Source: Halorubrum halophilum (GTDB lineage Archaea > Halobacteriota > Halobacteria > Halobacteriales > Haloferacaceae). Taken from it: a DNA stretch of 44,587 nucleotides. A program made the position numbers and the translations under genes. Positions 5,494-20,383 of the stretch are shown here, piece by piece. The stretch covers positions 1 through 44,587 of the forward strand of contig NZ_BBJP01000050.1 of assembly GCF_000739595.1 (NCBI RefSeq), given 5' to 3'. Positions within the stretch are counted from its first letter, which is position 1; every line of letters starts with the position of its first letter. Below the pieces are notes generated by a model. It saw only the letters and a list, made by a program, of their open reading frames with translations. It was not told the origin of the DNA and did not search any database.

Positions 5494-6480
5494 TTATTGC
5501 TCCGTGACGGTCAGCCGGTGGTACACTTCGGCGTCGGCGTTCGACCGTATTGGCGTTTCCGGCGGCTCTCCCTCGTACACGAGGTAGACGACGCGGATTC
5601 GCTCACCGGTAAACGTCGGACTCAGATCGTGTGAACGCTGCCATCGTTGATCCGCCGCGACGGTTCTGTTGAACGTGTCGAGCCGTCGTTCGGCGATCAC
5701 CGTTCCGTCCGAGTTCTGTTGCTGTAACTTCGCGACCACCGTGTAGTCAACGCTCCGGTCGTGATGGTTGTCCACCACGAAGACAAACTCTTCAGTCTGT
5801 TCTAGGGTTATCTCGTTCGGGAGGTTTCCCGCGACGAGCGTGTTGTCGTCGCTCGTTCCGTACAGAGAAGCGGTTGAGTAGGATTCGCCGTCGTTGGGGA
5901 CAGTCAGAACGAACCCAGTGGTGAGGACGGCGACTAGAATGGAGATGCCGAGGGCGGCGTTGAGTATCGATTCCCGCCGCGTTCGTCCGGAGAGACTCTC
6001 TCCAATAGCCGACGCTGCCCCGCCAAACGACGGCGCGTAGCGGTCACTGACGGGCATTCGGAGTCGGCGCACCGTCCCGACGGCGGTGGCGACGCAGACG
6101 AAGAGCGCAACGGTTACCACTCCCGTCTCGGCTGTGATCGTTCCGGCTACGGCCGACGTAAGCAGTCCCAACAGCGGGAGTAGTGCGACGCTGGTGCCTA
6201 CGGAGAGGACGAATCGTATGGTCGGCGAGAGCCGAACCGGATCCTCGCCCATCAGAGATGTGGTCAGATTCCTCGGGACGCGTCGGCTGAGAACGTTCGG
6301 ACCGTTTCCGCCTTCCTCAGGGAATAGGGCGGTCACAAGAGCGTATCCGGGTAGGACTAAGAGCATGGGAAGTGCGATAGCGACTCTGATACCGGATCCC
6401 GGATCGAGGGTGACCGCCGCGGCCAGAACGACGATCGCGGCCAGCGAGGCCCATACGTCGTCGGAAATGTCCCGAATCAT
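5494..6480 (-). CDS. DUF1616-type membrane protein
   Basis: The N-terminal part reads MIRDISDDVWASLAAIVVLA followed by LPMLLVLPGYALVTALFPEE, the DUF1616 signature with the PGY motif. Four hydrophobic segments precede a C-terminal extracytoplasmic beta-rich domain (from about residue 195) with NLPNEITLEQTEEFVFVVDN and WQRSHDLSPTFTGERIRVVY. The open frame extends to 6615, but the extra 45 residues are polar, Lys/His-rich and unlike DUF1616 starts, so ATG 6480 is preferred. It converges with the membrane protein gene (21-base gap). DUF1616 genes often lie in archaeal glycan clusters; the function is unknown. Confidence 0.75.
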   Translation of the reverse strand: MIRDISDDVWASLAAIVVLAAAVTLDPGSGIRVAIALPMLLVLPGYALVTALFPEEGGNGPNVLSRRVPRNLTTSLMGEDPVRLSPTIRFVLSVGTSVALLPLLGLLTSAVAGTITAETGVVTVALFVCVATAVGTVRRLRMPVSDRYAPSFGGAASAIGESLSGRTRRESILNAALGISILVAVLTTGFVLTVPNDGESYSTASLYGTSDDNTLVAGNLPNEITLEQTEEFVFVVDNHHDRSVDYTVVAKLQQQNSDGTVIAERRLDTFNRTVAADQRWQRSHDLSPTFTGERIRVVYLVYEGEPPETPIRSNADAEVYHRLTVTEQ

Positions 6481-6640
6481 CCGCCGATCGTCCGAAGTCG
6501 ACCGTCGCGACGTTTTCCTGATATCGTCATGCCGACCGTGAATGAAACGTATGTGAGTGTTCGCATGTGTGTCGTGTTTTGTTTTCGGTGGGGTCATCCG
6601 CTCGCGTTTTTTCATTCGTTCAAGACGACCGCTGCGAGCT

Positions 6641-6662
6641 TCTACTTCGAGTCTACTTCGAG
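6641..6662. repeat. Tandem 11-bp direct repeat in divergent intergenic region
   Basis: TCTACTTCGAG occurs twice head to tail, 22 bases in total, in the region between the divergent DUF1616 and DUF354 genes. The region also has AT-rich promoter-like stretches at 6675-6690 and 6760-6785. It could be a regulator site; nothing else was recognised in 6481-6901. Confidence 0.5.
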
Positions 6663-6901
6663 TGTAGAACCGATACCGTATAATTAGGAGCTACCTTTTT
6701 CGACGGTACGACCTCCAAAACGGACAATTCACCGCTGTGGATTGCGTCTCGAACCAGACTCATTAATTATCGAATATATAACAATACTCGCCTCTCACAA
6801 CCCGATAGACGGCACGATCGCGAAATGCACACGAGATATCGATCCGGAACCATTCGTGTATACCCTTCTCACAACAGAGTCTCCACGGAGAGTGCTTGAG
6901 C

Positions 6902-7936
6902 ATGCGCGTCGCCTACACGATCCAGCATCCTGCACACGTACACCTGTTCAGGAACTCGATCCGAGAGCTCGTCGAATCGGACGACAGCGTGTTCGTGTTT
7001 GTCAGGGAGAACGATGTCGCGACGGACCTTCTTGACGGTTACGGCATCAAATACAACCGACTGGCGCCGGAAACGGAGTCCTTCGCGGGACTCGCCGTCG
7101 CGCAAACCCTCTACGAGCTGCGTCTCCTCCGCAACTGTCGACAGATCGACCCAGACGTCATCGTCGGGATGGGCGAACCAGGTGTGTCACACGTCTCGAC
7201 GCTGTTGGGGACGAACGGGCTGATATTCACGGATACGGAGGATGCGACGATACAGAACATGCTTGCGTTCCCGCTCGCTGATCGGATCTGTACCCCCGAT
7301 TGCTACCGAGACGACCTCGGGGAGAAGCAGTGGAGGTATCCGGGGTACCACGAGCTGGCGTACCTGCATCCCGACCGGTTTACGCCAGATCCATCGGTGT
7401 TCGACGACACGGACGTCGACCCCAACGAGAAGTACGTGGTGCTTCGCCTCGTCGCTTGGAACGCCCTTCACGACATCGGCAGCGCCGGATTCAATGAGCT
7501 TGAAGCAGTCATCGAGCGGCTCGAATCGACGGGTACCCGCGTCATCATCACGTCCGAAGGTGAGCTCCCGGACCGATTCGATGACTATCTGATGCCGACG
7601 GCGCCAGAAGAGGTCCACCATGTGCTACATTTCGCGGACCTATTTATCGGAGAGAGTGCGACGATGGCGGCCGAATCGGCTGTTCTCGGCACACCGGCAG
7701 TCTTCGTGAGCCAGCTCCGTCGGGGATACATCGACGAGCTGGCCGACGAGTACGGGCTCGTCTTCCAGTTCAATGGCGACGACCGTCAGTCGCGCGGGCT
7801 GTCCAAGGCGGTGTCGATACTCGACGGATACGCGGTCGACACGTGGCGACGCCGACGCGAGGAACTGCTCGCGGACAAGGTCGACACCACGTCCGTCATC
7901 GTCGAACAGATCCGCGAGATGGCGTCTCGTAACTGA
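6902..7936 (+). CDS. DUF354 glycosyltransferase-fold protein
   Basis: The protein starts MRVAYTIQHPAHVHLFRNSI, the DUF354 N-terminus with the HPAHVHLF motif. It continues with VIVGMGEPGVSHVSTLLG, LIFTDTEDA and a C-terminal GESATMAAESAVLGTPAVFV, which resembles the UDP-binding half of UDP-GlcNAc 2-epimerase/MurG-like GT-B proteins. ATG 6902 is preferred over TTG 6896. DUF354 proteins are common in archaeal glycan clusters and probably act on nucleotide sugars, but the reaction is not established. A UDP-sugar dehydrogenase follows. Confidence 0.82.
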   Translation: MRVAYTIQHPAHVHLFRNSIRELVESDDSVFVFVRENDVATDLLDGYGIKYNRLAPETESFAGLAVAQTLYELRLLRNCRQIDPDVIVGMGEPGVSHVSTLLGTNGLIFTDTEDATIQNMLAFPLADRICTPDCYRDDLGEKQWRYPGYHELAYLHPDRFTPDPSVFDDTDVDPNEKYVVLRLVAWNALHDIGSAGFNELEAVIERLESTGTRVIITSEGELPDRFDDYLMPTAPEEVHHVLHFADLFIGESATMAAESAVLGTPAVFVSQLRRGYIDELADEYGLVFQFNGDDRQSRGLSKAVSILDGYAVDTWRRRREELLADKVDTTSVIVEQIREMASRN

Positions 7937-13972: not shown

Positions 13973-15103
13973 TCATCCGGTATCCTCTGTGCATCGACAC
14001 GTCCCCTCTACATCGAGCGTATACACGTTCCGCGTCCGTTCGGCAACTTGGTCCCAGTCGAACGCTTGGATCATTTCCCGGTTCCGCTGTCCCATCTCTT
14101 GGAGCTGCTCGCGATCATCTATCGCCTTTCGGAGCGCAATCTGGAGTCCTGCAGAGTCTTTCGGATCGTACAGGTGCCCTCCGTCGGAGCCGATCAGTCC
14201 GGGAAGACATCCCAGCATCGGCGCCACGACGGCGCGCTCGAACGTCATCGCCAGTACCGCGCTACCGGAGGTGAGTATCGAGTCGAAGGGAAGTGCCACC
14301 GCATCCGCAGCGTGCATGTACAGCTGAATGTCGTCATTAGGGACGTACTCGAGGACCGTGTGTACTCGATCAGCACCGGTACTAGCCTCTTCAACGCGGT
14401 TTTCCACGTCTTCGTTCAACGGATTCCCGACAACGAGGAGTCGCGCGTCCCCAGAAACGTGCTTGAACGTCTCGATCAGCGTTGGGACGTTCTTGTAGGG
14501 TCGGATCAACCCAAAGAAGGCTACAACGGGCACGTCGGGTGGAAGATCGAGTCGAGCACGGGCTGTCGACTGCGAGATATTATTCTCGTAGACGCCCAAG
14601 AAGTGTCCGTGGGGAACGACGCGAACGCGGTTCGCGACTCGGTCGGGAAGTCGGTACGTCTCTTCGACGGATTCGATCGCCTCCTCACAGTGAACGACGA
14701 TCCTATCGGCGAGACGTGCAACTGCGTGTCTGACCGCGAGTTCGCTACGCGGGGTAGCTCGTTCGTGGTCGAGGAGGTTGTGGACGGTCCAGACAATCCG
14801 GACTCCGAGTGCTCGCAACAGGACGAGTTCGAAAATAAGCCTCACACCGAGCAGTACAGCAATTACAGCAGGAAACCGGCGGTTGGTGGTGACGAAGCGG
14901 TCCAACCAGTGAATGTGGAAGACATCCGGCACCCCATGACGACGAACGCCCACGAGGAGCGGAAACGCCCAACCACCATCCGTCGCCGTGACTTCGACAC
15001 CTCGGTTCTCTAACGCCGCGATCAGTTCGGACTGATACGGGTTCGAACCTCTGTAATCCGGGCACATCAACACCGAGATTCGGTCGTCGTCGGGATCAAT
15101 CAT
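13973..15103 (-). CDS. GT4-type glycosyltransferase
   Basis: The 376-residue GT-B protein has DVFHIHWLDRF and VWTVHNLLDHE in the N-terminal domain, VRVVPHGHFLGVY at the domain linker, VVAFFGLIRPYKNVPTLIE at the start of the donor domain, and SILTSGSAVLAMTFERAVVA in place of the usual E-x7-E; the first Glu is replaced, as in some archaeal GT4 subgroups. It would transfer a sugar to a lipid-linked acceptor. The C-terminus ends CRCTEDTG just before a PATE element. It is divergent from the FG-GAP gene. Confidence 0.85.
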   Translation of the reverse strand: MIDPDDDRISVLMCPDYRGSNPYQSELIAALENRGVEVTATDGGWAFPLLVGVRRHGVPDVFHIHWLDRFVTTNRRFPAVIAVLLGVRLIFELVLLRALGVRIVWTVHNLLDHERATPRSELAVRHAVARLADRIVVHCEEAIESVEETYRLPDRVANRVRVVPHGHFLGVYENNISQSTARARLDLPPDVPVVAFFGLIRPYKNVPTLIETFKHVSGDARLLVVGNPLNEDVENRVEEASTGADRVHTVLEYVPNDDIQLYMHAADAVALPFDSILTSGSAVLAMTFERAVVAPMLGCLPGLIGSDGGHLYDPKDSAGLQIALRKAIDDREQLQEMGQRNREMIQAFDWDQVAERTRNVYTLDVEGTCRCTEDTG

Positions 15104-15322
15104 GCCACCGTCCGGTCGTGCTCTCCAACGTCATACGGCAGACGAGACTGACCACGGATATTGTTATGAAGTTTTGAATAGGCAGCAATCGACGTTTTGC
15201 CCCGGAATCCGCGAAACGAGTTTCGGACTCGTCGGCAGGCCGAGAAATGGGTGGAGCGGATCGGGTGAATACATCTCGTTTAAGATGTGTTTACTCTTGC
15301 CCGGGCGGTCCGGAATTCCTGT

Positions 15323-16456
15323 ATGAAGTTCCAACACGAACGCATCGACGATGACCCTCCCTGCGGTCGGCTCACGTTCTGCCTCACGTCCGATCTTACC
15401 GGAAACGGGCGACCCGACGTGATCGTCGGCGGAATGGGCGCGAAGAAGGAGGTGAACGTACTCGGGAAACGGATCATACTCCGGTATCTGCCGGTCGTCG
15501 GAAGTGCGATTAAGCATCTAGAATCCAATATATTCTGGTACGAGAACCCTGGTTGGGAGCGCCATGAGGTCGCACGGATACCCGAGCTCTCGGTCGGCGG
15601 ATCGATCGGTGACCTCGACGGCGACGGGACGCCCGAACTCGTGGTCGGACAGAACGGTGAGACCGATCTCTACTGGTTCGATATTCCGTCGAACCCGCGA
15701 CACACATGGTCCCGTCACTTGATTACCGACGAGTTCCGGAAGTACCATGACACGGAGATCGCCGACGTCGACGACGATGGCGAGCCGGAAGTCGTCATTC
15801 TCTCACAACAGAGCGAGACAGTCTGCTACTACGACGTTCCGGAAGACCCCACTGTCTCTCCCTGGCCCGACGATCACCGACACATGATCGCCGAGAACCT
15901 GAGCGTCGAAGGCGTTGCGGTGACCGACCTGGACGACGACGGGACTACCGAACTCGTCGCCGGACCGAACGTGTTTCGTCGGAACGGGTCCGCCGACGAC
16001 TGGGACCGCGAACGCCTCGGTGATGACTGGCAGTGGACGCGGGTCGGTATCGCAGACCTCGACGGTGACGGCGACAGAGAGATCGTCTTAACTGAGGGTG
16101 ACTTACCGTACCAAGGCGATCGACGAGGGCGTGTGGGCGTGTTCGACCCGCCGGACTGGTCCCTGACGACGCTCGACGACGACCTGTTCAATCCACACAC
16201 AATCCAGATTGAGGACTTCGACGGCGACGGCCGACCGGACCTGCTCGTCGCCGAGATGGGTCTGGAGGGCACAGAGGACCCGAGGATGTTCGTCTACCGG
16301 AACACCGGCATGGGATTCGAGCGCGTCAAGATCAGTAGGGGGATCGCGACTCACGAGGCAAAGACAGCCGACCTCACTGGTGACGGTTCGCTCGACGTTG
16401 TCGGAAAATCGTACGGGCCCGACTGTCACGTTGATGCTTGGTACCGTCGAGATTGA
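15323..16456 (+). CDS. FG-GAP/VCBS repeat protein (beta-propeller)
   Basis: From ATG 15323 the protein is 377 residues and starts MKFQHERIDDDPPCGRLTF; the frame could begin at GTG 15287 but the downstream start matches the usual N-terminus. It has about seven repeats with calcium-binding D-x-D-x-D-G loops: DLTGNGRPD, DLDGDGTPE, DVDDDGEPE, DLDDDGTTE, DLDGDGDRE, DFDGDGRPD and DLTGDGSLD. The fold is a beta-propeller. No signal peptide is visible, so it may act in the cytoplasm or leave by an unknown route. Such proteins recur in haloarchaeal glycan clusters; the role is unknown. Confidence 0.85.
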   Translation: MKFQHERIDDDPPCGRLTFCLTSDLTGNGRPDVIVGGMGAKKEVNVLGKRIILRYLPVVGSAIKHLESNIFWYENPGWERHEVARIPELSVGGSIGDLDGDGTPELVVGQNGETDLYWFDIPSNPRHTWSRHLITDEFRKYHDTEIADVDDDGEPEVVILSQQSETVCYYDVPEDPTVSPWPDDHRHMIAENLSVEGVAVTDLDDDGTTELVAGPNVFRRNGSADDWDRERLGDDWQWTRVGIADLDGDGDREIVLTEGDLPYQGDRRGRVGVFDPPDWSLTTLDDDLFNPHTIQIEDFDGDGRPDLLVAEMGLEGTEDPRMFVYRNTGMGFERVKISRGIATHEAKTADLTGDGSLDVVGKSYGPDCHVDAWYRRD

Positions 16457-16488
16457 GTATCGAAATCGTCCGGAGATTACGGAAAATT

Positions 16489-17239
16489 GGCTCTGTTGAA
16501 ATCCTATTCTTCAGATATATTCTCGCCTGAAACAGCCGGTCGATGAAAACTGCTTACTTACCACCTGATTCTCTGTAGACGTAGATAGAATCAATGCATA
16601 GGTAGATTTTGACTCCCTCAGAAACGATTATGCTTCTGACCCGAGCGTGGGCGTTCGGTCCATGCGATTGTTCATCCATTCACCAATGAATCCACCAATT
16701 ACTCCAATTACCATAATGACAACCGTCATAATACCTAAGGTGGCCACACCTGCTCCAACTGAGGAGATAACCATCAGCCAAGAGTCTCCGACAGCATCCA
16801 CGAGGATTGAATGTCCCCACCAGTCAACGACTGTTACTCCACTCTGCCAGAGGATAATCGGGATACCCCCAGTTAGCCCGGTTACTACGCCTGCATGGGT
16901 TCCTTTGATTGGCTGTGACTGGTATAGATACCCTGAAATTATGGATGCAATGAACACTGGCGTTGCTGAAACCGGGTCAGGCGTGAGTACCCAATTAATC
17001 CCGAAAGTAAATGGAATCGAAGCGATTCCGAGGAGGACCGCTGTGCGAAACTGTCCGTAATTTATGTTCTTACGGAATCTGCTGAGCGGGGTCATATCTG
17101 TTCATTAATAATTTCATTCTGTATATAAATCTGTTTCCCCCCTTACGGGAAATGTCATCGTGCTAAATGGGGTGTCCTTCACCTGTACTGACCGCGACTG
17201 GGTGAGAATATATCACTTGCTGAGGATTTCAACAGAGCC
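16489..17239. mobile_element. Non-autonomous IS6-like element carrying a DUF5518 gene
   Basis: The 751-bp unit starts GGCTCTGTTGAAATCCT and ends with the exact 17-bp inverted copy. Inside, after 8 unlike bases, a second block GATATATTCTC(G/A)CC is also inverted, so the termini are about 38 bp. It is flanked by a perfect 8-bp duplication GGAAAATT (16481-16488 and 17240-17247). The tip sequence GG-CTGTTG and 8-bp duplication fit the IS6 family. There is no transposase; the only gene is the reverse-strand DUF5518 protein. Confidence 0.85.
16628..17095 (-). CDS. DUF5518 membrane protein, transposon cargo
   Basis: The 155-residue protein has four to five hydrophobic segments: FRTAVLLGIASIPFTFGIN, PVFIASIISGYLYQS, the conserved-looking GTHAGVVTGLTGGIPIILWQ, VSSVGAG-like residues 105-120 and GIMTVVIMVIGVIGGFIGEW. 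This is the DUF5518 layout of small haloarchaeal membrane proteins of unknown function. It lies wholly inside the 751-bp IS6-like element, about 140 bases from each end, and its sequence is less GC-rich than the glycan genes. It is therefore mobile cargo and not part of the glycan pathway. Confidence 0.8.
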   Translation of the reverse strand: MTPLSRFRKNINYGQFRTAVLLGIASIPFTFGINWVLTPDPVSATPVFIASIISGYLYQSQPIKGTHAGVVTGLTGGIPIILWQSGVTVVDWWGHSILVDAVGDSWLMVISSVGAGVATLGIMTVVIMVIGVIGGFIGEWMNNRMDRTPTLGSEA

Positions 17240-17310
17240 GGAAAATTCGAAGCGAAAGCCTCGTCCTTCAGGGCGTGGGGCGAATCCGACAACTCCTACC
17301 CGGTCTACAG

Positions 17311-17355
17311 AGAACAAGGAGAGAGCCCACGACTTCAGTCATGGGAAGGGGTCAA
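17311..17355 (+). mobile_element. IS200/605 right-end-like hairpin, GTCAAT type
   Basis: AACAAGGAGAGAG precedes the hairpin CCCACGAC-TTCA-GTCATGGG (17326-17345; one bulge) and then AAGGGGTCAAT. The order matches other solo right ends here. It is the second of three such units within 175 bp. Confidence 0.6.
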
Positions 17356-17384
17356 TTCCAGCTATCGGTTGACTGTGTCAGCGT

Positions 17385-17430
17385 TGTCAGATTCACTCCC
17401 GGCGTAAACGCCGGGATTCTCTCCTCGTAG
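17385..17430 (-). mobile_element. IS200/605 right-end-like hairpin, GAATCCGAC type
   Basis: On the minus strand: TACGAGGAGAGAATCC, a perfect 7-bp hairpin CCCGGCG-TTTA-CGCCGGG (17398-17415) and the end GAATCTGAC. It faces the two preceding units. Confidence 0.65.
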
Positions 17431-17651
17431 AAAGATAGATTGTCTCGGATCGGTTTCAAGGCGAGTCAGTCGGTCCCGAACAACGGCGTCAGAGCTGTTA
17501 AGACGATATTAACTCATATCCAGAGCCACGGATTCGGCCCAATTGGGACACTATGGGCCGATATAGAACTGTTGATTCAGTCAACTGTATATCTTATTCA
17601 TATGTAATCTTATGATATTCACATAAGATAGAACATTAAATTAACGGCATG

Positions 17652-17683: not shown

Positions 17684-20383
17684 ATGGCACGCAAGCTGGT
17701 AAGCGAGGACGGCGATAGCGACAGGTATAGCGATACCGAAGAATCGGGCGGAGAAAACGGTGACCCTGGGGCCACTGGTGGATTGCTGAACAGACGGGAG
17801 TACGTAAAACTTGGCGCGGCGGCGGCGGGTGGAATTTTCGTGTCTTCGGGGTTGGGGTCGGCCTCGGTAGAGCGGCACGGGATACAGTTCGATCGCGTCC
17901 TCAACGCGGTCGACGATCTCGGGCTCGACAACTCCGGTGGGCGAGCGATCGATTCGGCGCTTCTCGACAGTTTAGAGGACGGAACGCTCATCGAGTTCCC
18001 CGACGGTCGATACACGATCGAGGATACACTCATCGGCACGAACCTATCGAACGTCGGCCTCGTGGCCGCTGAAGGAGCTCGGCCGACGCTCGTCCCTGCC
18101 GCTCCCACGAGCGACCTCTTAGATGACGAGTATCTGATCGTCTTCCGGGGGTCGGACATCCTGTTCGGTGGGTTCGATCTGGATTTCACCCGCGGTTCGG
18201 ACTACGGCGGACGCGTCCATCTCATCGCCGAGAGCGGGGATGTCTCCGTGTTCGATGTCACTACGAAGGGGCAGCTGCCCGGGAACGTCGACGGCTACCG
18301 CGTGGAGGCGCGCACGAAGGACGGCGTTGCGACGCTAGACAACGTCAACATGCGTGACGGCGCGGTCGAAGGACGGTCGGCGACCGGAATATTCGTCGGC
18401 CCGCCACATGCGGGCGAGATCCACATTCGCAACTGCGACATCTGGCACTTCCCCAGCAAAGGCATCTACGCGTCCAATCCCGCTCACCCCGATGTCGGAA
18501 AGGGTGGAACCGTCCATGTGGACGGTGGACTATACAAGAACAACAACGACTGTGACATCCGCGTCGGCAGCGCCGGTTCCACGGTCAAAAACATCGTCTC
18601 GGTCAAGCAGGACACTCGTCAGGGCGAGACCGTCACGTGGAAGAATCCGATTCCACGGCGGCACTGGGACGGGCGAACCGACATCGTCCAGACCCGGTCG
18701 ATCCGTCTCAAGTACGGCCAAGACGTCCTCATCGAGGGCTGCGAGTTCGTTCACGACATCGGCCAAGGCGCCGGAGCCATTACGAGCGAAGGCTCGCACG
18801 GAGGCGGAACGACGATTCGCGACTGCCGCATCTCGGTGAACGACGCCGAGGTCTATCCGATTCTGCTGAAGAACGGAAGCGGTGACGGATTCGAGATCGA
18901 GAACGTGTCGATCACGGGGACGAGCGGGCGCGGCGCCGCCATCCGCGTCGAAGACGGCCGCGACGGCACCACCGTCCGGAACAGTTGTATCAATCTCACG
19001 GGGGCGGGCGAATGCGGCGTCGAGATCATCGGCTCGAACGACTGCGTCGTGGCCGACTCGAACATCAAAGTCGACGGCGAAGCCGTCAAGTACAGGAACG
19101 CGAGCGTCGAGACGAGCGGCCTCACCTACACGGACAGCTGTCCACTCCCCGATGCGACGGACTACGATGCACCTCCCAGTGGGGATTCCTCGGAAGACGA
19201 CACGACGGAGAAGACGCTCTCGGACACGTGTACGATCCGCGCAACGGACGGTACCGTGGACTACTCGGTCACCGCGAGCGACAGTATTGTCGACGGATCG
19301 GACGGGAAGACCGTCGATTCCTCGGTCGCGAACACCGTTTCGGGAACCATCACTGACGGCGACGAGCAGTGGTTCTGGTTCGGCGGCGAGATTCAGAGTC
19401 TCGAACTCAGTGCGGACGCCACCTTCTTCATCAACGGTGAGGAGGTCGATCCCGCTCAGTTCGACGACGCGACTGACGGCGGCGATTCCTCGGGAGACGA
19501 CACGACCGACGACGGAGACTCCTCGGGAAACGACACGACGGAGAAGACGCTGTCGAACACGTGTACGCTCCGAGCGACCGACGGTACAGTGGAGTACTCG
19601 ATCACCGCAAGCGATGGCATCGTCGACGGATCGAACGGGAGCACTGTTGACTCTTCGGTCGCGAACACGATCTCTGGAACTCTCGCCGACGGTGCCGGTG
19701 ACTGGTTCTGGTTCGGTGGCGAGATCCAGAGTCTCGAACTCAGCGCGGACGCCACCTTCTTCATCAACGGCGAGGAGGTTGACACCGATCAGTTCGAAGA
19801 CACGGCCGACGACGAGACTGCCTCGGAAGACGGTACGACCAAAGAGGAAGACGGCACGACAGAAAAGACGCTGTCGGACACTTCTACGCTCCGCGCGACC
19901 GGTGGCGCTGTAGACTACACCATCACTGTGAGCGACGGTATCGTCGACGGATCGGACGGAAAAACCGTCGATTCCTCGGTCTCGAACACGATCTCCGGAA
20001 CTCTCGCCGACGGTGCCGGTGACTGGTTCTGGTTCAGTGGTGAGATCCAGAGTCTCGAACTCAGCGCGGACGCCACCTTCTTCATCAACGGCGAGGAGGT
20101 CGACACCGCCCTGTTCGATGGTTCGCTCCCTAACGTTCTCAAGGTCGATGGGAAGGTCGCCGATGGGGGCGCGGAGTACACCATCGAAGTGACCGACGAA
20201 CTCGTTCGCGATGACAACGCCAGTACAGTTCCCGAACAAGGCCACGAGTGGGACGAACGCGAGGACACCGTCAACGGTAGCGAAGTCGTCGGCTCGGTGT
20301 GGGACGGCATCGACGTCTACCAGTTCTCCGGCGATCTGACCCAACTGAACATCGACGGAAACGCACAGGTGAACTTCGAGTAA
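17684..20383 (+). CDS. Tat-secreted right-handed beta-helix protein with repeat tail
   Basis: A Tat signal follows a polar leader: NRREYVKLGAAAAGGIFVSS, twin Arg at 37-38. Residues about 70-490 form a parallel beta-helix (pectate-lyase-like fold) with repeats such as RGSDILFGGFDLDFTRGSDY and IHIRNCDIWHFPSKGIYASN. Then three tandem units of about 88 residues (from about 510, 620 and 727; each with EKTLSDT, WFWFGGEIQSLELSADATFF and INGEEVD) are joined by Asp/Ser/Thr-rich linkers, and a fourth divergent unit ends the protein. Probably a cell-surface glycan-binding or glycan-modifying protein. The beta-helix is nearly identical to that of the lipoprotein at 23683. Confidence 0.85.
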   Translation: MARKLVSEDGDSDRYSDTEESGGENGDPGATGGLLNRREYVKLGAAAAGGIFVSSGLGSASVERHGIQFDRVLNAVDDLGLDNSGGRAIDSALLDSLEDGTLIEFPDGRYTIEDTLIGTNLSNVGLVAAEGARPTLVPAAPTSDLLDDEYLIVFRGSDILFGGFDLDFTRGSDYGGRVHLIAESGDVSVFDVTTKGQLPGNVDGYRVEARTKDGVATLDNVNMRDGAVEGRSATGIFVGPPHAGEIHIRNCDIWHFPSKGIYASNPAHPDVGKGGTVHVDGGLYKNNNDCDIRVGSAGSTVKNIVSVKQDTRQGETVTWKNPIPRRHWDGRTDIVQTRSIRLKYGQDVLIEGCEFVHDIGQGAGAITSEGSHGGGTTIRDCRISVNDAEVYPILLKNGSGDGFEIENVSITGTSGRGAAIRVEDGRDGTTVRNSCINLTGAGECGVEIIGSNDCVVADSNIKVDGEAVKYRNASVETSGLTYTDSCPLPDATDYDAPPSGDSSEDDTTEKTLSDTCTIRATDGTVDYSVTASDSIVDGSDGKTVDSSVANTVSGTITDGDEQWFWFGGEIQSLELSADATFFINGEEVDPAQFDDATDGGDSSGDDTTDDGDSSGNDTTEKTLSNTCTLRATDGTVEYSITASDGIVDGSNGSTVDSSVANTISGTLADGAGDWFWFGGEIQSLELSADATFFINGEEVDTDQFEDTADDETASEDGTTKEEDGTTEKTLSDTSTLRATGGAVDYTITVSDGIVDGSDGKTVDSSVSNTISGTLADGAGDWFWFSGEIQSLELSADATFFINGEEVDTALFDGSLPNVLKVDGKVADGGAEYTIEVTDELVRDDNASTVPEQGHEWDEREDTVNGSEVVGSVWDGIDVYQFSGDLTQLNIDGNAQVNFE
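19204..20130 (+). repeat. Three tandem repeats within the beta-helix gene
   Basis: Units begin at about 19210, 19543 and 19861 and share long identical DNA runs, for example around TTCTTCATCAACGG and CAGAGTCTCGAACTCAG. The close DNA identity points to recent duplication or gene conversion and makes copy-number change likely. Confidence 0.8.

Follow-up and report, generated by a model that had tools for sequence, protein, structure and literature searches.

The MIC231 elements of Bacillus cereus are mobile insertion cassettes (MICs): they lack a transposase, share the ends of the resident insertion sequence (IS) IS231 and hold passengers of many kinds (PMC2266710). According to a 2008 review, no modularity of this kind had been observed beyond the IS231 group (PMC2266710). 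Transporter ISs (tIS) that combine passenger genes with a transposase of their own have also been described, and both MICs and passenger-bearing ISs are already known kinds of element (PMC3129680, PMC2266710). In haloarchaea, the ISH2-type MITE of Haloquadratum and Halobacterium is transposase-free, and its form of about 520 bp has a non-transposase ORF (PMC3119063). Here we describe an element in a 44,587-nucleotide stretch of Halorubrum halophilum DNA (the window, which denotes the whole stretch analysed); judged by its sequence, the system to which it belongs is an archaeal equivalent of the modular IS231/MIC231 elements found in Bacillus. In both systems the transposase-bearing relatives also carry passengers (PMC2266710). 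IS231 and MIC231 are bacterial, belong to the IS4 family and have additional DNA separating the left repeat from the transposase, whereas the present system is archaeal, belongs to the IS5 family, has the passenger between the transposase and the right end, makes 8-bp duplications and holds a different passenger in nearly every copy. By description, the ISH2-type MITE is one element type with one kind of ORF, whereas here the ends enclose dozens of unrelated genes. ISHla2 and ISHxa2 have the same terminal 17 bp and 8-bp duplications as the window unit and differ from it in encoding a transposase, which would be expected to act on the unit.

The element proper is 751 bp long (16489-17239), the length also stated by an earlier sequence-only reading, whose 767-bp interval (16481-17247) counts both flanking octamers. 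That reading had described exact 17-bp terminal inverted repeats, a perfect 8-bp target duplication and a DUF5518 protein as the only gene, with no transposase, and each of these observations was borne out (Table 1). The cargo ORF matches its Pfam family with an E value of 9e-20 (71.4 bits, cut-off 27), its product has about three hydrophobic segments, and there is no transposase gene or other credible ORF inside the element. The 'second inverted block' of the same reading reflects arms that are 79% complementary over 39 bp. An apparent 9-base match between the flanks, CGGAAAATT, consists of the octamer and, on the right, the last C of the element itself. The terminal 17-mer matched twice in the window (up to three mismatches) against 0.06 matches expected in shuffles. 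The element has a GC content of 0.47 and one end of each type, with no internal family end. The whole unit was found only once in this genome, and there was no above-threshold match in Rfam. Neighbouring genes (13973-15103, 15287-16456 and 17684-20383) encode a glycosyltransferase, an FG-GAP repeat protein and a beta-helix protein, and look like a surface or polysaccharide cluster.

Table 1 Coordinates of the element and its target duplication in the window
Feature	Positions	Strand	Remarks
Target duplication GGAAAATT, left copy	16481-16488		Present once in L152:4850-4899, the paralogous repeat without an insertion
Left 17-bp terminal inverted repeat GGCTCTGTTGAAATCCT	16489-16505	+	Perfect
Left end, type A, ~65 nt	16489-16553	+	Equals the end opposite the transposase in complete ISHla2-type transposons
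Cargo gene, 155-aa DUF5518 membrane protein	16628-17095	-	Pfam PF17647
Right end, type B, ~64 nt	17176-17239	-	Transposase-side terminus with the tail immediately adjoining; arrangement that results if the transposase gene is missing
GGTCAGTACAG motif, 47-57 nt from the right end	17183-17193	-	In complete copies, tail that follows the stop codon of the transposase
Right 17-bp terminal inverted repeat GGCTCTGTTGAAATCCT	17223-17239	-	Perfect
Target duplication GGAAAATT, right copy	17240-17247		Perfect match to the left copy

The search of haloarchaeal genomes that the sequence-only reading had proposed showed that the ends recur in many of them with other genes in between. With up to two mismatches, the 17-mer had 54 matches in this 3.68-Mb genome and its reversed pattern had none. 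Exact copies occurred in 51 of 52 Halorubrum genomes (control matches, 0) and in 58 of the 393 genomes of a phylum-wide draw, nearly all 58 from the same order. Plasmid searches with the whole element returned the same two ends, 83-98% identical and enclosing other genes, in Haloferax, Halorubrum, Haloarcula, Halobacterium and Halolamina, and four of these differing elements were flanked by perfect duplications. Both 64-nt ends were 98.4% identical to those of an element of Haloferax gibbonsii pHG2 that has another gene inside and is flanked by the duplication TTCCAAGT, and the type A end shared 95.4% identity over 65 nt with the right end of a transposase-bearing element of H. trapanicum (NZ_AP017571; L164). 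Phage sequences matched neither the transposase described below nor the element. In IMG/VR the exact 17-mer was found in seven contigs, about chance level by our own estimate, and the longer type A end in none.

Other pairs of family ends enclose a 273-aa transposase of the IS5 family (NF033579, 209.8 bits, cut-off 140; also PF01609), close homologues of which are named ISHla2 and ISHxa2 by PGAP on annotated plasmids. The genome under study holds an intact copy of the gene on contig C96 (G000:C96:56590-57408) that is 93% identical to the query and in which the D-D-E motifs are visible by eye. The end GGCTTTGTTGAAATCCT, one base off the end of the window element, lies 52 bp upstream of its ATG, a position at which a family end was present in 78 of 80 GTDB loci. 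This copy reaches the edge of its contig, which is the sole cause of its incompleteness, the right end lying beyond the contig. From sequence, the cognate transposase is assigned to the ISHla2/ISHxa2 group of the IS5 family. The IS1595 family (PF12762), which also makes 8-bp duplications, was tried and rejected as a source: there were four matches in three places; three were short, split or stop-interrupted, and none lay within family ends.

We then catalogued end pairs over all fetched sequence (n = 249), accepting an element if its 8-bp duplication had at most one mismatch. Duplications flanked 81 pairs (75 of them exact), whereas shifting the octamer by 1-8 bases gave 0-1 of 249. A transposase was present in 42 of the 81 elements and absent from 39. 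The transposase-bearing copies measured 1071-5124 bp and the transposase module needs only about 900 bp, so all of them hold extra DNA, nearly always with an ORF. Longest passenger ORFs, 111 in all, a set that surely includes some spurious short ORFs and a few transposase fragments, fell into 96 clusters, and nearly every copy has a different gene. Hydrophobic segments were predicted in 44 of 80 passengers. Recognisable products included an acetyltransferase, a methyltransferase, a histidine kinase, a CNNM/CorC transporter, an SBF-type transporter and two enzymes of core metabolism, a type 2 isopentenyl-diphosphate isomerase and a dihydroxy-acid dehydratase (elements L155:2822-4847 and L221:4949-7987). 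On our own reading of the sequences, a PIN-like and HTH pair and an AbrB/VapC-like pair are also among them. The dN/dS between passenger copies, from small counts, was 0.11-0.72, which is compatible with maintained function. Defence was not supported as a general passenger role: PADLOC matched only a few of 74 passengers, and mostly weakly. Family members of 119-125 bp resemble MITEs. PGAP annotates the transposase only and leaves the passengers as hypothetical proteins.

A passenger with a PGF-CTERM-like C-terminus adjoins the transposase in an H. lacusprofundi element (L169:1449-3252); from its C-terminus and position it is probably Hlac_3088. Expression of Hlac_3088, a transposon passenger of that species, is reported to rise during virus infection (PMC10544981), and an H. 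lacusprofundi transposon passenger has been proposed to hinder virus attachment (PMC10544981).

How a transposon may become a cassette was most apparent on contig C92 of the same genome. A 442-bp transposase-free unit there aligned end to end with a 1272-bp transposase-bearing element of a sister species (L182). Both have the same termini and an 83-aa passenger (98.5% identical over 327 nt), and the only large difference is the transposase gene, absent from the C92 unit. On its transposase side the C92 unit has a fused terminus and GGTCAGTACAG tail, the tail that comes after the transposase stop in L182. Among the 39 transposase-free elements, 19 have such a tail 45-47 nt from one end, and none has it at both. 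The window element has this tail at its right end, and its left end corresponds to the one that lies away from the transposase in complete transposons; by analogy, the simplest reading is that it would be a DUF5518-carrying transposon minus its transposase. We found no transposase-bearing transposon with DUF5518, which is why transposase loss from the window unit is argued through the C92 unit.

The window element interrupts a repeat that adjoins an IS200/IS605-type end. An uninterrupted copy of this repeat with a single octamer (90% identical) precedes a TnpA-like ORF by about 100 bp, and many partial copies cross the junction. Conservation elsewhere is limited to the upstream gene (at most 84%, up to the gene end); the empty site of the window element is therefore a paralogous one only. 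For the H. gibbonsii element, too, only the neighbouring gene matched elsewhere. The site of the C92 element is empty at the orthologous position in sister species, where the sequence runs on unbroken for 412 nt (84-88% identity). Empty sites, which the sequence-only reading had suggested comparing, thus exist for both the window and the C92 element, a paralogous one for the first and an orthologous one, in another species, for the second. Two orthologous toxin-antitoxin-like elements, one here and one in a sister species, occupy an identical point in repeats of this type. The one on contig C65 (L064, flanks of 6083-7430) and the window element (repeat sequence at 17248-17440) share an insertion point in the IS200/IS605-type repeat, GGAAAATT or GAAAAATT, just before the hairpin CGAGGCGAAAGCCTCG; this point is possibly an insertion hot spot. 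Family members were also seen nested inside the ends or bodies of other members (L064:9775-10353 and L069:8532-9190).

The shared ends, the 8-bp duplications, the C92/L182 pair that differs by the transposase gene alone and the empty sites lead us to conclude that the window element is very probably a MIC, a non-autonomous derivative of an IS5-family transposon of the ISHla2/ISHxa2 group that belongs to a passenger-laden system. Its inverted repeats are common to a known IS (the ISHla2 group, with one mismatch in its own genome), the transposase gene is absent, the DUF5518 passenger is unrelated to transposition, and the target duplication is as long as the one that the parent makes, with 8 bp both here and in the 42 transposase-bearing relatives. 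These relatives, with their own transposase and a passenger, fit the definition of tIS (PMC3129680), which the transposase-free window unit does not. Nor is it a MITE, a short non-coding element consisting of ends only, as it holds an intact gene of 155 aa. In the sequence of events that we propose, an original transposon would have kept both ends and the DUF5518 passenger and lost its transposase gene; an intact ISHla2-type copy elsewhere in the genome would make transposase, which would recognise the ~35-bp ends of the unit in trans and move it, duplicating 8 bp of target. The cargo would be useful to its carrier. The suggestion that a full element elsewhere could move the unit thus stood in part: an intact transposase is present and its action in trans is probable, but it belongs to IS5, not IS6.

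Units of this family do combine, and it is conceivable, if unlikely, that the window unit never had a transposase and that two family ends came to flank DUF5518 through nearby insertions or end exchange, the outer ends then moving together. The full C92 element (1279 bp, L065:6483-7761) is built of two passenger modules, one with the 83-aa gene and one with a second gene; an internal end is retained, and the target duplication flanks the outermost ends only. Its modules match transposase-bearing elements of two genera, one of the sister Halorubrum and the other of Halopiger, where the passenger of ISHxa2 resembles the second C92 gene (88% in protein, 92.7% in DNA over 768 nt); elements also nest, as on contig C52. 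Against such a capture, the ends of the window element are of type A on one side and type B on the other, as simple transposase loss predicts, and there is no internal end.

We consider it improbable that the element is a dead relic, two ends that flank a resident gene by chance and have lost their mobility. The whole unit is present once in this genome, and a DUF5518 gene 97% identical to the cargo occurs in one sister-species genome (L270:1402-2070, G004), the one other genome of the family in which the gene was found at high identity, with no recognisable ends around it, which on this view it has lost. This copy indicates that the gene can also sit outside an intact cassette, and it tempers the view that the insertion is recent, for which the perfect duplication speaks. 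The terminal repeats of the window element are likewise perfect, its 64-nt ends are 98% conserved, the DUF5518 ORF is intact and so is the transposase in the same genome, all of which argue against a relic. The sister-species copy lies a few hundred bases from a CRISPR-like array with the repeat GCTTCAACCCCACGAGGGTACGTCTGAAAC.

The origin favoured by the sequence-only reading, an IS6-family derivative moved by an IS6 transposase, is hardly credible: 8-bp duplications and GG-starting tips with an inner TGTT also fit IS6 (PMC7986276) and the genome has three IS6-type transposases (PF13610), but these end in GTGTTCAGATAAG, ~690 bp apart, and none forms a full IS6 element with the ends of the window element; dozens of complete elements hold an IS5-family transposase within ends of the latter type, the only IS6-type ORF among 74 passengers is an extra gene in an element that also has the IS5 transposase (L225), and a review of IS6 knew of a single member with a passenger gene (PMC7986276).

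As far as the literature shows (ISfinder and most subscription papers lay outside the search), what is new is an archaeal, genus-spanning IS5 system with another gene in nearly every copy. We tentatively suggest, as a reading that may well prove wrong, that one IS5 group underlies an open-ended gene-cassette system in haloarchaea, with a conserved transposase module and a conserved pair of ends; passengers would be continually exchanged between these ends, and transposase-free cassettes would be the spreading form of the system; its passengers would be mostly small membrane or secreted proteins, along with toxin-antitoxin-like pairs and metabolic enzymes. If true, this system would work like integron cassettes, with transposition ends replacing the site-specific recombinase. 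Haloarchaea swap genes heavily, and single-gene vehicles are poorly described. Knowing the ends turns many orphan genes, here DUF5518, into cargo of one mobile system, and the transposase-free units hold additional single genes, which annotation shows as hypothetical proteins standing alone. With the ends recognised, capture and exchange can be tested in Haloferax, and passengers implicated in the virus response of H. lacusprofundi (PMC10544981) may find an explanation. The IS5 group spans dozens of haloarchaeal genera and shows how salt-loving archaea can trade single genes.
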